Below, one piece after another: positions 3,915 through 25,611 of a stretch of DNA of 64,000 bases. A program made the position numbers and the translations under genes. The notes beneath the pieces are model-generated. The model ran no database searches. It was given only the letters and a program-made list of their open reading frames with translations, and had not been told where the DNA came from. Numbering within the stretch: position 1 is the first letter of the stretch; the number at the start of each line of letters is the position of its first letter. The stretch covers positions 2,046,001-2,110,000 of the forward strand of contig NZ_JAGKQQ010000001.1 of assembly GCF_017939745.1 (NCBI RefSeq). Reading direction: 5' to 3'. The DNA comes from Gemmata palustris (lineage in GTDB: Bacteria; Planctomycetota; Planctomycetia; Gemmatales; Gemmataceae).

Positions 3915-4150
3915 CGTGGAGACCCTTCCGAGGTGGAACGCCGCTTTCCGTGGCGGCTATTTCTCAATCGGAGAGCCCGGGACATCGAACGTTGAGAAAC
4001 GTTGAAGTAGGGGGCGGGAATTGCCGCCGACGCTCGTGTTAGCACGGTCGCGGCGCACGGGGCGCCTTCACACGGCAAAGTGAGCGGGCAAGGTTTAGCG
4101 ATCGGTCGGCTTCTTCACCCTCGCCCGGCTCTGCGGGTCGGGCCAACCGA

Positions 4151-8645: not shown

Positions 8646-9974
8646 ATGTACTTCACGGACGAGCAACCATTCCTGGACGCGGTGTTCGCTCGGTTCGCGG
8701 ACGACGGACCGCGCCTGCTGTACGCCGACTTCCTCGACGATTCGGGCGCGCCGGAGCGCGCGGAGCTGATCCGCGTGCAGCTCGCACTCGCGCGGCTGAG
8801 TGAAGACGACCCGCTCCGGCCCGCGCTCTGCGACCGGCAAGACGAACTGCTCACCAGGAACCGCGCCGCGTGGACCGCGCACCTCGCCGGACTGGTCGAA
8901 ACGGTCGATTTCCGGCGCGGCGTACCCGATTCCGCATCGGTCGACGCCGCAACGTTCCTCGAGCGCGGCGAAGAACTGTTCGCGCGCCTCCGGGTCCGCA
9001 GGCTGAGCCTCCGCGACGCGGCACCCGTGATGACGAAACTGGCCGCGTCGCCGCTCCTCGCGCGGGTGCGGGAACTCGATCTGTGCAACTGCGATCTCGG
9101 CAACGGCGGCGTGAACCTGCTCGCGCGATCGCCGTTCCTTGAGAACCTCGCCGCGCTCGATCTCGGCTTCAACCGGATCGAAGATTCCGGCGTGAACCTC
9201 CTCGCTCGGAGCAGTGCGTTCCCGAACCTCACCACGCTCGCGCTCAACGACAACGACACGATCGGCGACGCGGGGGCGACCGCGCTCGCGGAATCGCCGT
9301 TCTTCGCGGGACTGACCGGCCTCGATCTCTCGGGCAACGACATCGGTGACGCGGGGCTCGGGGCCGTAATCGCGAGTAAGTCCCTCACGCGCCTGCACTC
9401 GCTCCGGGTCACGGGGAACCGCATCGGCGACGCGGGCGTCACCCGACTCACGCGCGCGCCCCTTTTCGCCCGCGTGACAAAGGCCCAACCGGAGCTATCA
9501 CTCCGCGCCAACATGATCGGCCCGGCGGGTGCGGCGGCGCTCGCCGCGTGCCCCGCGCTCGCGGCGTGTACCGCACTCGACCTGTCGCACAACTACCTCA
9601 GCGATTCCGGCGTCGCCGCGTTACTGCGCTCGCCGCACATTGGTCGGCTGCAAGCGCTCCGGCTCGGGCGCAACCAGCTCACGGACAACGGCGTAAGCGC
9701 CTGCTGCGAACTCTTCGGCAGACTGTTCGAGCACCTTCAATTCCTGGACCTGTCCGGCAACCGGCTCACGCGCGTGGGGATGGGCATCCTGTCGGCCCGG
9801 CCCGGCGCGCACGCGGTTCACATTGATGTGAGCGGGAACGTGCAGTCCGCGGTGGCCGGGGACGCCCCCGTCGCCGTTGCCGGGTTGTTGGACGGCCTGC
9901 TCGATGGCGTAGCGGAGGCCGCACTGCTCAAGCGCCGAGTCGCCCACCCGCGTCATCTGTCCGACGGTGAGTGA
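8646..9974 (+). CDS. TIGR02996 leucine-rich-repeat protein, second copy
   Basis: A 442-residue paralogue of the preceding gene: TIGR02996 domain at the N-terminus (DGPRLLYADFLDDSGAPERAELIRVQ), then ribonuclease-inhibitor-like repeats with the pattern LDLSGNDIGDAGLGAV and LDLSHNYLSDSGVAALL, more regular than in its neighbour. No export signal is present. The ATG at 8646 is preceded by TACGAT at 8634-8639, leaving exactly 6 nt; if that is the -10 box, the mRNA would be leaderless. About 130 bp separate the two paralogues. Confidence 0.88.
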   Translation: MYFTDEQPFLDAVFARFADDGPRLLYADFLDDSGAPERAELIRVQLALARLSEDDPLRPALCDRQDELLTRNRAAWTAHLAGLVETVDFRRGVPDSASVDAATFLERGEELFARLRVRRLSLRDAAPVMTKLAASPLLARVRELDLCNCDLGNGGVNLLARSPFLENLAALDLGFNRIEDSGVNLLARSSAFPNLTTLALNDNDTIGDAGATALAESPFFAGLTGLDLSGNDIGDAGLGAVIASKSLTRLHSLRVTGNRIGDAGVTRLTRAPLFARVTKAQPELSLRANMIGPAGAAALAACPALAACTALDLSHNYLSDSGVAALLRSPHIGRLQALRLGRNQLTDNGVSACCELFGRLFEHLQFLDLSGNRLTRVGMGILSARPGAHAVHIDVSGNVQSAVAGDAPVAVAGLLDGLLDGVAEAALLKRRVAHPRHLSDGE

Positions 9975-10130
9975 AATTTAACGGCTTCTGCTCGGCTCGC
10001 TTGCAACACTCTTTCTCACAACTTAGAATCCGAGTCCGCGCACGACACGAAGAGTGTGGCGCGAACGGTTCCACCGTCTCGGGCCGGTCCGCGAGGGTCC
10101 GGCCCTACCTCTAATTAACAGCAGCAGGCT

Positions 10131-10970: not shown

Positions 10971-11711
10971 ATGCCCGACACCGACACGTCCGCACCGAAG
11001 TACAAGCGCGTTCTGCTCAAGCTCAGCGGTGAAGCGCTCGGCTTCGGCGGGGGCAAACTGGGCATCAACCTCGATGAAACGAAGCACATCGCCGAACAAC
11101 TCGCCCGCGTTGCTGCGAGCGGGGTGCAACTCGCGGTCGTGATCGGCGGCGGGAACCTGCTCCGCGGCGCACAGTTCTCGGCCGGCGACGAGCGGATCAA
11201 GCCCGCGACCGCCGACTACATGGGAATGCTCGCGACCGTGATGAACGGCCTCGCGCTCCAGGACACACTCGAAGCGATGGGCGTGGAAACGCGCCTCCAG
11301 AGCGCCGTGCGCATGGAAACGGTCGCGGAACCGTACATCCGGCGCCGGGCGCTGCGGCACCTGGAGAAGAACCGCATCGTGATCCTCGCCGGCGGCACCG
11401 GGAACCCGTTCGTCACCACGGACACCGCGGCGGCACTTCGCGGAACCGAACTCCAGGCACACGTTCTTCTTAAGGCCACAAAGGTTGACGGCGTCTTCAA
11501 CTCCGACCCCGCGAAGAACCCCTACGCCGAGAAGTTCGAGCGCCTCACGTTCGATCAAGTGATCCAGAAGCAACTCGGGGTGATGGACATCGGCGCGTTC
11601 GAGATGTGCCGGCTCGCAAAACTTCCGATCCTAGTGTTCAACTACAAGCAGGACGGCGCGATCGAACGGGCCGTTGCCGGTCAGCCGATCGGTACCATCG
11701 TCACCGGTTGA
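10971..11711 (+). CDS. pyrH: UMP kinase
   Basis: A 246-residue hexameric-type bacterial UMP kinase (amino-acid-kinase fold). It converts UMP to UDP with ATP in pyrimidine nucleotide synthesis. Visible motifs: KYKRVLLKLSGEAL at the start of the fold, VVIGGGNLLRG in the phosphate-binding loop, GGTGNPFVTTDTAAALR, and KATKVDGVFNSDP. Length is standard. The order pyrH-frr is a classic bacterial pair, kept here with a 157-bp gap, but the usual upstream partners rpsB and tsf are absent from the window. The ATG at 10971 lacks a strong ribosome site; the first ten residues are poorly conserved in the family. Confidence 0.95.
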   Translation: MPDTDTSAPKYKRVLLKLSGEALGFGGGKLGINLDETKHIAEQLARVAASGVQLAVVIGGGNLLRGAQFSAGDERIKPATADYMGMLATVMNGLALQDTLEAMGVETRLQSAVRMETVAEPYIRRRALRHLEKNRIVILAGGTGNPFVTTDTAAALRGTELQAHVLLKATKVDGVFNSDPAKNPYAEKFERLTFDQVIQKQLGVMDIGAFEMCRLAKLPILVFNYKQDGAIERAVAGQPIGTIVTG

Positions 11712-16252: not shown

Positions 16253-17359
16253 TTAGTTCTTCGCTTCGGTGTACCGGTGCGTCGGAACGGGGCGCCCGGG
16301 GCGCAAGCTCTGGCTCGTGCGGAAGTCCGCGATCACGCCCGCCAGCGCGCACTGCACGGCGACGACGCGCTTCACTTCCGCTTCCAGCACAGCCGGGTCG
16401 ATCGCGACCCGGGCGTTCACGATGAGGTCCGCTTCGCGCGGGCGCAGGCCGCTCGGCAGCGAGAGCTTCGGCGCGGTGTCGCTGCTAATCACGTTCCCGA
16501 CCGCGAACGCGCTCGCGTCGTCCATGCCGATGAGTTTCAGGTGCGCCACTTCGCCGCCCAGCGCGCGGCACACGGTCGCCAGATCGCCCAGGATCGCGGT
16601 GAGCAGCGCGTCGAGGTCGAAGGGCGCGTCCGAGGTGAGCCGGGCGGTCGCGTTCAGCCAGCCGAGTTCGGCCTCGCCCTCCGCATACGTGTCGTAGTCG
16701 ATGTCCAAAATCTTGCGCCCGAACGCGCCCGTCTGGTCGAGCAGTTCTGCGAGCGCGTCGAAGCCCGCGCCGGTGGTCGCACTCACACGGAGGACCGGCG
16801 TCCCGGGGAACTGTTCGCCCAGCAACCGCGAAAGTTCCTCGATGGCTGGCGGGTCGAGTTCGTCGATCCGATTTATCACGATCGCGTCGGCCTCTTCGAG
16901 CTGCTTCTTGAAGATGTACGCGGCCTTCGGACTGAACCCGCCGGCGGACTGGTTGCGCAGGATGCGAATCCCGTGGCTCGGCTTGAACAGGACCGCGTAG
17001 GGCGCGACCTCGAACCGGCCGGCGTACAGGTCCTTGAGCGGTTGGACGACGGTCGCCACGAGATCGGTGCAACTCCCCACAGGTTCGGCGAGTATCACAT
17101 CGGGCCGTTCGGACGCCTCGAGCGCACCGACGCGGCCCACGAGATCGTCGAAGCGACAGCAGAAGCACGCGCCGGGAACCTCCTCCACCGCGATCCCCTG
17201 TCCGCGGAACGTGTTCGTGTCCACGAGATCGTGCGCTTGGTCGTTGGTAACGACCCCCACCCGCTTGCCCTGTGATTGGTACAGGCGCGCGAGCCGCCCG
17301 AGCGCGGTGGTTTTTCCGGCGCCGAGGAATCCGCCAACCATTACAAAACGTGCTGTCAT
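16253..17359 (-). CDS. CobW/COG0523 family GTPase
   Basis: A 368-residue P-loop GTPase of the COG0523 family, metallochaperone-like proteins that deliver zinc, cobalt or other metals. Walker A GGFLGAGKTT is at residues 9-18, the metal-binding CxCC-type motif CFCC at 65-68, and the guanine-recognition-like NRID in VINRIDELD. A CobW C-terminal domain follows. Which metal it handles is unknown; no zinc or cobalamin genes are adjacent. The start is the ATG at 17359, because the P-loop strand begins there; the longer upstream frame overlaps the promoter region of the divergent oxidoreductase gene. Confidence 0.9.
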   Translation of the reverse strand: MTARFVMVGGFLGAGKTTALGRLARLYQSQGKRVGVVTNDQAHDLVDTNTFRGQGIAVEEVPGACFCCRFDDLVGRVGALEASERPDVILAEPVGSCTDLVATVVQPLKDLYAGRFEVAPYAVLFKPSHGIRILRNQSAGGFSPKAAYIFKKQLEEADAIVINRIDELDPPAIEELSRLLGEQFPGTPVLRVSATTGAGFDALAELLDQTGAFGRKILDIDYDTYAEGEAELGWLNATARLTSDAPFDLDALLTAILGDLATVCRALGGEVAHLKLIGMDDASAFAVGNVISSDTAPKLSLPSGLRPREADLIVNARVAIDPAVLEAEVKRVVAVQCALAGVIADFRTSQSLRPGRPVPTHRYTEAKN

Positions 17360-23770: not shown

Positions 23771-23845
23771 CGGTATGCGTTGGCGAACGGCCGGCGTGAA
23801 TCGGTTGGTGTAAGCTCCCCAACTCTTGAAGCCATCACGTGTATC

Positions 23846-24098
23846 AAAAAGACGAGCCGCCGCCTGGGGGAGGCGGCGGCATGGGGGAGTGTTGCCGTAA
23901 GACGGGGGAACGGACGTGTTGTCTGAAAGGTTCGGGAGAGGGGGGAAATCTCTCCCGTGGCCGCGACCTTGGGGGAAGGTCGTTGTGGCCCTGGTGTTCC
24001 GCAGTTCCGGGTCGCCCTTGGGGGTGACGAACTTTGGGGGAAAGTTCGTCGTTGAGCGATCCGGCACCGATCCGCGATTCACTTGGGGGTTGTTCGTC
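23846..24098 (-). ncRNA. Candidate small RNA with eight C5 runs, mostly in hairpin loops
   Basis: Read on the minus strand, the region encodes a chain of hairpins. Clear perfect stems in plus coordinates are 24097-24103/24071-24077 (7 bp), 24041-24050/24026-24035 (10 bp, loop CCCCC), 23976-23982/23964-23970 (7 bp, loop CCCCC), 23950-23957/23933-23940 (8 bp) and 23872-23880/23856-23864 (9 bp, loop TCCCCCA). Eight runs of five or more C occur in all. The last hairpin is followed after 5 nt by TTTTT (23850-23846), resembling an intrinsic terminator. A promoter lies just upstream (24105-24133). No open frame here looks coding. Family unknown; the repeated UCCCC-type loops resemble sRNAs that bind Shine-Dalgarno sequences. 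Confidence 0.62.
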
Positions 24099-24104
24099 GC
24101 GGAC

Positions 24105-24133
24105 GGTATAACTGAAAGCAGCGACCGTGCCAA
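24105..24133 (-). promoter_or_regulatory. Promoter of the candidate small RNA
   Basis: On the minus strand, TTGGCA (24133-24128), a 17-bp spacer and TATACC (24110-24105). Predicted transcription start is near 24098, at the first hairpin of the RNA. The same TTGGCA -35 occurs before the MoxR operon (26215). Confidence 0.55.
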
Positions 24134-24351
24134 TTGCCGGAGTATCGCGGGGCACCAAATGCTCGATTCGGCGCAACTCCTCTGATGCCATAAGTCCGCG
24201 AAAATTGACCAATCGGTGTACCGCGGCAAAAATTCGTGCCACAGTTCGGAAACCTCGCCTAGTTTGTAAATCTTGCCGGGCGTTGTAAGACGTGTCATTG
24301 GTAAAACTGACACAACCGCCCACCTTTCTACCTGCTGCTGAAGAGGGCGCC

Positions 24352-25611
24352 ATGCCGGCCGATCAACTGGTGCAGAACCTGGAATCCGCACTGTCCAAGG
24401 TTCCCCTTATTGACCCGCACTCGCACATCGACCCGCTCAGCCCGGTCTCGAAGTCCCTCGACGACATCCTCGGCTACCACTACTACACCGAACTCGCCCA
24501 CTCCGCCGGGATGGGTCAGGCACTCCTGTCACGGGACGCGGACCCGCGCGAGCGCGTGCGCGAAATCGTCCGGTTCATGGACCGGTACGACAACACTGCC
24601 CAGTACGGCTGGTTCGTGGACATCGCCCGCACGTTTCTGGGCTTCGACGAACAGGAAACGCACGTCACCGCGGCCGACGCGGACAAACTCTTCGACGCTG
24701 CGCAAAAGACGTTCGCGCAACCGGACTGGGAAGCGCAGGTGTTCGCGAAGTCGCGCCTCGAAAAGATCTTCCTGACGAACGAGTTCGACGACCCGCTCCA
24801 GGGCTTCGACACCACGAAGTACGTCCCGTGTTTGCGGACGGACTCACTGGTGTTCAATCTCGATAAGCCCGACACGCGGCGCCGGCTCGAGGCGATCAGC
24901 GGCGTCCACGTTCACGACGGGGCGACGCTGCGAATGGCGCTAGCGAAAGTGTTCCTGCACTTCACGCGGAACGGGGCGAAGGCGTGTGCGATCTCGCTCC
25001 CGCCCAACTTCCACCCGGCGAAGTTCGACGACGAGCACTTCTACGAACAGATGCAGTTCCACGGGTACCACGACCTCGCGCCCGGCATGTTCTGGCTGAT
25101 CGCCGAGTTCTGCCGCGACTTCCGGCTCCCGTTCGACTTAATGATCGGCGTGAACCGTCGTGTTTACGAGAAGGGCGTTTACCAGGGGCAAGACCTGTTC
25201 GACCAGCGCACCAGTTTGCTGCAATACAAGGAACTGTTCAACGCCTTCCCGGACGTGACGTTCCCGGTCTCGGTGCTGACGAGCGCGCAGAACCAGGAAC
25301 TGATGGCGTACTCGTGGATCTTCCCGAACGTGCTGCCGAACGGCCACTGGTGGTACTCGAACACCCCGCCGTTCATCCGCAAGGACTTGACGGAGCGCAT
25401 CACCGCGGTGCCGAAGACGAAGCTGATCGGGTACTATTCGGACGCCTACAAGCTGGAGTTCGTGAAGCCAAAGTACGGCATGTACCGGCGCATTCTTGCG
25501 GGCGTGTTGGCAGACGAGTTCGTCCGCCCCGGGGCACTCAGTGAGACGGACGCGGTCGCACTGGGCACGCGGCTCCTGCGCGACAACGTGAAGGACGTGT
25601 TCAAGGTGTAG
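24352..25611 (+). CDS. Uronate-isomerase-like amidohydrolase
   Basis: A 419-residue amidohydrolase-superfamily protein resembling planctomycete proteins annotated as glucuronate isomerase or amidohydrolase. The metal-binding motif DPHSHIDP lies at about residues 20-27. The C-terminal half has NVLPNGHWWYSNTPPFI and PKTKLIGYYSDAYKLEF, features of the uronate isomerase fold. True uronate isomerases convert glucuronate to fructuronate; whether this one does is unproven. The ATG at 24352 is preceded by GAAGAGGG, a good ribosome site, so it is preferred over an in-frame ATG at 24292. The 24134-24351 stretch upstream holds no gene that I see apart from a likely promoter region. Confidence 0.75.
   Translation: MPADQLVQNLESALSKVPLIDPHSHIDPLSPVSKSLDDILGYHYYTELAHSAGMGQALLSRDADPRERVREIVRFMDRYDNTAQYGWFVDIARTFLGFDEQETHVTAADADKLFDAAQKTFAQPDWEAQVFAKSRLEKIFLTNEFDDPLQGFDTTKYVPCLRTDSLVFNLDKPDTRRRLEAISGVHVHDGATLRMALAKVFLHFTRNGAKACAISLPPNFHPAKFDDEHFYEQMQFHGYHDLAPGMFWLIAEFCRDFRLPFDLMIGVNRRVYEKGVYQGQDLFDQRTSLLQYKELFNAFPDVTFPVSVLTSAQNQELMAYSWIFPNVLPNGHWWYSNTPPFIRKDLTERITAVPKTKLIGYYSDAYKLEFVKPKYGMYRRILAGVLADEFVRPGALSETDAVALGTRLLRDNVKDVFKV

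Follow-up and report, generated by a model that had tools for sequence, protein, structure and literature searches.

The question raised by this locus is whether the hairpins rich in C runs on the minus strand at positions 23846-24133 of the window (the whole analyzed stretch of 64,000 nucleotides) constitute a genuine RNA gene and, if so, what the repeated runs would do. The first-pass annotation had proposed a small RNA there, with eight C5 runs exposed in a chain of hairpins. On recounting and folding, the hairpin chain was confirmed as real: eight runs of at least five C were recounted on the minus strand, spanning 224 nt, at 23866-23870, 23883-23887, 23904-23908, 23940-23945, 23971-23975, 24020-24024, 24036-24040 and 24085-24089 (plus-strand coordinates). 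In 2000 dinucleotide shuffles of the 288 nt, such runs numbered 2.09 ± 1.09, with a maximum of six. The minus-strand fold reached -113.8 kcal/mol compared with -86.2 ± 5 kcal/mol after shuffling (z -5.5), and was better than 200 of 200 shuffled sequences.

At least three C5 runs had been described as apical loops of perfect stems, and these were recovered in an inner hairpin at 24026-24050, in the hairpin at 23959-23990 and in the terminator. All but one of the eight runs had a mean unpaired probability of at least 0.83; the exception, at 23904-23908, had a value of 0.37.

An open frame of 169 amino acids (23844-24353, minus strand) runs across the element, and in 21 of 24 homologues one or more sense frames stay open across the transcript; such frames are common because stops are rare in a sequence so rich in C. 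Despite them, the coding reading was rejected, since, of 286 internal gaps tallied sequence by sequence in the alignment, 248 had lengths not divisible by three, and for the same reason the 169-amino-acid frame is regarded as non-coding.

One full-length DNA match was found in the organism's own genome. Within the genus, the DNA search matched the element in 17 of the 19 genomes, its own included, the two without it being 82% and 68% complete; within the family, 24 of 95 genomes were matched. The covariance-model search of other Gemmataceae that had been suggested along with the initial description gave matches in 39 of 95 family genomes, representing 14 of 39 genera, at E <= 0.01; this is an upper figure, because the weakest matches are short terminator-hairpin matches or tRNA-like sequence (L084). 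Across the class, 35 of 297 genomes were matched at E <= 0.001, in 11 genera that all belong to the same family. When one conserved hairpin was used to scan a public genome collection, 10 matches were obtained, all in planctomycete records.

Among 24 homologues, 95.2% of the cells in 47 consensus pairs were standard pairs, and 29 of the 47 pairs had both positions altered in one or more sequences. With slid controls, 35.5-46.1% of cells were paired and 3-8 pairs had both-side changes; this control favors the consensus structure, which had been built from those very sequences, but the gap is large despite that bias. The C runs behaved differently from the stems. In 23 close homologues, selected on DNA similarity and not on C runs, run lengths of three, four, five, six and seven occurred 51, 20, 129, 38 and 2 times, respectively, and a U stood directly before 110 of the 129 C5 runs. 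G runs of five or more were absent from these sequences. The C-run counts covered 52 of 55 loci, with two near duplicates (L010 and L130) and one locus in which no terminator was called (L125) dropped, and the RNA end of L116 was misplaced in them. From these alignments, exactly five C's after a U look selected while the stems drift. The comparative outcome that the first-pass annotation had named as decisive against an RNA, stems without compensatory changes and loops not conserved in close relatives, was therefore not what the relatives displayed, and its reading of the locus as the gene of a structured, minus-strand small RNA is upheld by stems that change in a compensatory way and C5 runs that persist.

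These data also bear on the reading that no RNA gene exists here and that a G/C-run repeat or a DNA-level element folds by chance. Other C5/G5-dense repeats do occur in the same genome; against this stand the single full-length genomic match, the same neighboring gene in many relatives, the conserved promoter and terminator, and compensatory changes with the C runs kept. We consider this reading extremely improbable.

The promoter had been given as TTGGCA-17 bp-TATACC. The letters are present, but TATACC is not conserved, and the assignment to the sigma70 type was wrong: in the 24 close homologues, second hexamers at the 17-bp spacing match TATAAT at 1-4 of 6 positions. The conserved block is instead of the sigma54 type, TTGGCACG-N5-TGC-TT (GG-N10-GC), occurring once per locus in 24 of 24 close homologue loci; in the window it is TTGGCACGGTCGCTGCTT, at 24116..24133 on the minus strand. 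The GG-N10-GC arrangement is the -24/-12 signature of sigma54. With this type of promoter, the start is expected near 24106 and not near 24098 as previously placed. The organism itself has a sigma54 gene (PF04552), as do 87 of the 95 genomes of the family.

The covariance model, built on the 3' part of the RNA only and thus not containing the sigma54 box, gave 23 matches in the family beyond the 24 close homologues. A sigma54 box lay at most 200 nt upstream in 15 of these 23, and at about 280 nt in two (L077, L081); one (L071) had a looser GG-N10-GC, and no box was found upstream in five (L079, L080, L082, L083, L084). On sequence grounds, the locus is very probably a sigma54-dependent small RNA gene.

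The predicted RNA is about 259 nt long (23848..24106, minus strand), as judged by conservation and structure; its start is placed 12 nt downstream of the GC in the -12 element and its end inside the U run. From the 5' end, hairpin 1 (24070..24104) carries a C5 run in its loop and comprises helices 1 and 2, with 95.8% and 100% of cells paired. Hairpin 2 (24002..24069) consists of a long outer stem, helix 3, in which 9 of 11 pairs changed on both sides, enclosing an unpaired C5 run and the inner hairpin with a CCCCC pentaloop (24026..24050); the latter was obtained by folding the window sequence and is absent from the consensus because its length differs among homologues. Hairpin 3 (23959..23990) also ends in a CCCCC pentaloop, and 7 of 8 pairs of its helices 4 and 5 showed both-side changes. 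Hairpin 4 (23933..23957), with its loop in the ATTTCCCCC region, corresponds to helix 6, where 98.4% of cells were paired and 5 of 8 pairs changed on both sides. It is followed by a mostly unpaired linker (23881..23932) containing two C5 runs and conserved without a consensus stem. The terminator scan identified an intrinsic terminator hairpin with a CCCCC loop at 23846..23880 (helix 7, 98.7% of cells paired). All of these features lie on the minus strand. The five U said to follow the last hairpin are present as five T, separated from the stem by five nucleotides (TCGTC).

The RNA is assigned to the minus strand because its promoter and its U-run terminator both lie there. Folding was less decisive. 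The plus strand folded with lower energy in 23 of 24 homologues (in L036 the energies were about equal), while the consensus folds were approximately equal. Counts of G-U versus A-C favored, for each fold, its own strand, and for helices common to the folds of both strands they were 28 versus 20 (24 sequences) and 20 versus 10 (17 sequences); these counts leave the strand unsettled. A functional plus strand would be a CsrB-like RNA whose GGGGGA hairpins titrate CsrA, and the fold energies as well as the occurrence of CsrA in 19 of 19 genus genomes, with four matches in the organism's own, speak in its favor. The conserved promoter and U-run terminator, however, are both oriented for the minus transcript, and no promoter- or terminator-like site oriented for a plus transcript was found, the sole plus site, at 24205, lying downstream of the element. 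The plus-strand reading is accordingly very unlikely. The number of CsrA-family matches in this genome (C1:5120376, C1:7317257, C1:7066793 and C1:4191170) is unusual in itself; across the genus it ranges from one to six per genome.

On the plus strand, a divergent gene of the glucuronate isomerase family (UxaC-like; Pfam PF02614, E 1e-9) occupies 24352..25611. A homologous neighbor was present at 24 of 55 loci, a count that leaves out the window locus itself, comprising 20 close homologues and four others (L066, L072, L076, L131). We treat this gene as context and do not claim it as a member of the RNA system.

Gibbs sampling of the regions upstream of 52 of the 55 loci (L009, L010 and L130 were left out) revealed a further conserved site, a cluster of the form TTTTACC ... 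CTTACAACGCCcGGCAAGAATTACAAAC mostly 100-160 nt upstream. Most close homologues showed it clearly, and in some other loci it was weak; the sampler always assigns a site, and some of those assigned (e.g., in L062, L074 and L116) are poor. In the window, this enhancer-like site (TTTTACC ... CTTACAACG ... GGCAAGATTTACAAAC) lies at 24262..24307 on the minus strand, about 130-175 nt upstream of the promoter. The upstream consensus GGYAAGNNTTRCAA had five matches in the 9.2-Mb genome compared with two for a reversed control. Four of the five lie upstream of C5 small RNAs, namely the window RNA and three others, at C1:2418069, C1:5630380 and C2:412279. The fifth match (L209), downstream of which no sigma54 box was seen, is probably due to chance.

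The first-pass annotation had thus been incomplete in treating the window RNA as a single RNA: it is one of several paralogues with shared control. A pattern combining a sigma54 box with two C5 runs gave six matches in the same genome and one for the reversed control, and the window RNA was recovered by the pattern with a wider gap. Four of the six matches were small-RNA-like, three with clear terminators and one, C1:2496431, less so, its terminator having three T only and its upstream region lacking the consensus. The match at C1:283422 was set aside because it shows no small-RNA layout, and the one at C1:5930872 was set aside on its matched letters only. The organism's genome therefore holds at least five sigma54-type C5 RNAs, which by reading of their sequences fall into three classes. 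C5 RNAs of the same design were also present in other genomes of the family. A stricter TTGGCAC pattern was matched in 28 of 64 family genomes versus 2 of 184 genomes of other families, with three genomes for the reversed control. The joint occurrence of sigma54 boxes and C5 runs in the 17 other RNAs compared is not independent evidence, because the pattern by which they were chosen contained both.

As to function, the C5 loops are complementary to GGGGGA, and the reading we prefer, with roughly even confidence, is that the sigma54-dependent RNA of about 260 nt acts as a multivalent, Hfq-free anti-Shine-Dalgarno regulator of many messages. A sigma54 activator would bind the shared upstream site and switch on the promoters of the C5 RNAs, whose transcripts would end at the terminator hairpins. 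Each hairpin would present the same unpaired (U)CCCCC, and the RNA would base-pair, independently of Hfq, with G-rich segments of messages, above all with GGGGG in ribosome-binding sites, thereby blocking translation of several messages at a time. At the level of the letters, this reading draws on the promoter, the shared upstream site, the terminator, the structure, the kept C5 runs, the paralogues and the enrichment of G5 at the Shine-Dalgarno position; transcription, the identity of the activator, pairing with messages and their repression are what we infer.

The enrichment was examined in a 1.29-Mb sample of the genome. There, the main Shine-Dalgarno sequence was GGAG/AGGAG and not G5, while runs of at least five G peaked just upstream of starts: 23 of 896 sampled genes had such a run in the Shine-Dalgarno window, against 6.8 expected. 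No obvious common function was apparent among 25 listed genes with G5 at this position, and no case of G5 at this position was found among 18 orthologue pairs. Corresponding values in two other genomes were 8 of 275 genes (G003) and 2 of 317 (G019). C5 RNAs were not detected in the latter, a relative, and its difference from the organism's own genome (G000; Fisher p 0.04) is given little weight because the lower GC of G019 confounds the comparison. Hfq (PF17209) was detected in none of 19 genus genomes, whereas five control genomes were positive.

The main rival to pairing is titration of a protein: the C5 loops would bind an RNA-binding protein recognizing (U)CCCCC, and sigma54 induction of the paralogues would free its targets. 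Protein-titrating RNAs carry one short motif repeated many times; CsrB/RsmZ titrate CsrA through GGA loops and CrcZ titrates Hfq. The window RNA shares this repetition, with one short motif of fixed length in up to eight copies on drifting stems; the motif recurs in several RNAs that share the upstream site, and the loops do not match the main Shine-Dalgarno sequence, GGAG, of their own genome. Against titration, G5 at ribosome sites offers a simple partner, and among candidate proteins Hfq was not detected, while CsrA, although present, prefers GGA. We hold titration to be possible, at clearly less than even confidence. The motifs of CsrB/RsmZ and CrcZ are GGA or A-rich, as opposed to C5. Five GGA occur in the 288 nt of the minus strand, none of them within a C5 run. 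CrcZ is likewise linked to sigma54.

A broader and rather doubtful form of the titration reading is a Gemmataceae-wide regulon, in which one enhancer-binding protein together with sigma54 would induce C5 RNAs that titrate the putative (U)CCCCC-binding protein. If such titration were true, it would equip bacteria without detectable Hfq with a hitherto undescribed kind of global post-transcriptional switch. Pairing of the C5 loops with G5 loops in a second small RNA or in palindromic-repeat transcripts, as an RNA sponge or antisense RNA acting away from ribosome sites, appears quite improbable, even with G5-rich palindromic repeats lying within open frames in at least three sampled places.

Returning to the anti-Shine-Dalgarno reading, the closest known anatomy is that of the rhizobial alpha-r14 RNAs (NfeR1; SmelA075 and SmelA099 models). 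These are described as having three or four hairpins with the same C-rich loop motif on variable stems, with loops acting redundantly and messages silenced by pairing with the Shine-Dalgarno site (PMC10746234, PMC3927594). A common loop motif on varying stems is also found here, a likeness of design and not evidence of descent. The alpha-r14 motif, CCUCCUCCC, is absent from the window RNA, in which C5 is the motif and CCUCC occurs once; moreover, up to eight motif copies compare with three or four hairpins, the phylum is different, and NfeR1 has LsrB as its activator and NtrC as its repressor, whereas the window RNA has a sigma54 promoter.

In Gram-positive bacteria, RNAIII, the Rsa RNAs and LhrC are reported to pair with Shine-Dalgarno sites through unpaired UCCC loop motifs, LhrC being multicopy, with three redundant UCCC sites and with stability and target pairing independent of Hfq (PMC3861533, PMC4132741). 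The window RNA differs by its fixed C5 run, more copies per RNA and sigma54 control, and no sequence relation is indicated, as there was no Rfam match. As regards the general C-rich anti-Shine-Dalgarno kind, the unpaired motifs fit, with seven of eight C5 runs mostly unpaired and G5 enriched at the Shine-Dalgarno position.

For the Vibrio Qrr RNAs, several sigma54-dependent paralogues, an enhancer-binding protein and upstream sites are described (PMC10162802). The likeness lies in the sigma54 promoter of the window RNA, recognized from sequence only. In contrast, the LuxO site TTGCAWWWTGCAA was absent from the 300 nt upstream of the window RNA, where a different conserved site is located. Hfq is used by the Qrr RNAs but was detected in 0 of 19 genomes of the host genus, and this also sets the window RNA apart from Hfq-dependent small RNAs in general. 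To our knowledge, the Qrr RNAs do not have C5 loops.

With Rfam 15, no family reached its gathering threshold in the window, and no match was obtained in 10 loci carrying other C5 RNA members; as far as this collection goes, the RNA represents a new family. By kind, it is a variant of the multi-hairpin RNAs with C-rich loops; what distinguishes it is the C5 motif and the number of its copies, the combination of a sigma54 promoter and a shared upstream site, and a host in which Hfq was not detected. In the open-access literature, no described planctomycete regulatory small RNA of such a kind was found; a 'Rhodopirellula-1' motif is tabulated in PMC2864571. If the proposed system is real, the Gemmata group gains a testable regulon of at least five RNAs in a single genome, four of them with a matching upstream consensus, with one sigma factor and a single repeated motif, and this in a genus in which no Hfq was detected. 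It would then allow a clean test of whether multivalent C-rich loops operate by pairing or by protein titration.

Some further observations were made in the course of the analysis. Three short C5 RNAs of one class (L115, L116 and L117, near position 4000) adjoin apparently stress-related genes, which on reading of their protein sequences are thioredoxin-like, general-stress-like and catalase-like. C5 RNAs of another class (L119, 4230-4710; homologues L120, L123, L130 and L132) lie upstream of or beside a conserved gene, whose protein in L119 starts with MSAPVYV. A G/C-rich palindromic repeat, composed of AGAACCTA, C runs, CCTTCCCT and its complement, G runs and AGGTTGT, was seen in the organism's own genome at L151 (about 11230-11620), L189 (about 9550-9990) and L192 (about 16400-16900). 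It had no such sigma54 box, and in three of three places it lay inside frames that stay open through the repeat; in-frame palindromic repeats are known in other bacteria, and this one resembles them.
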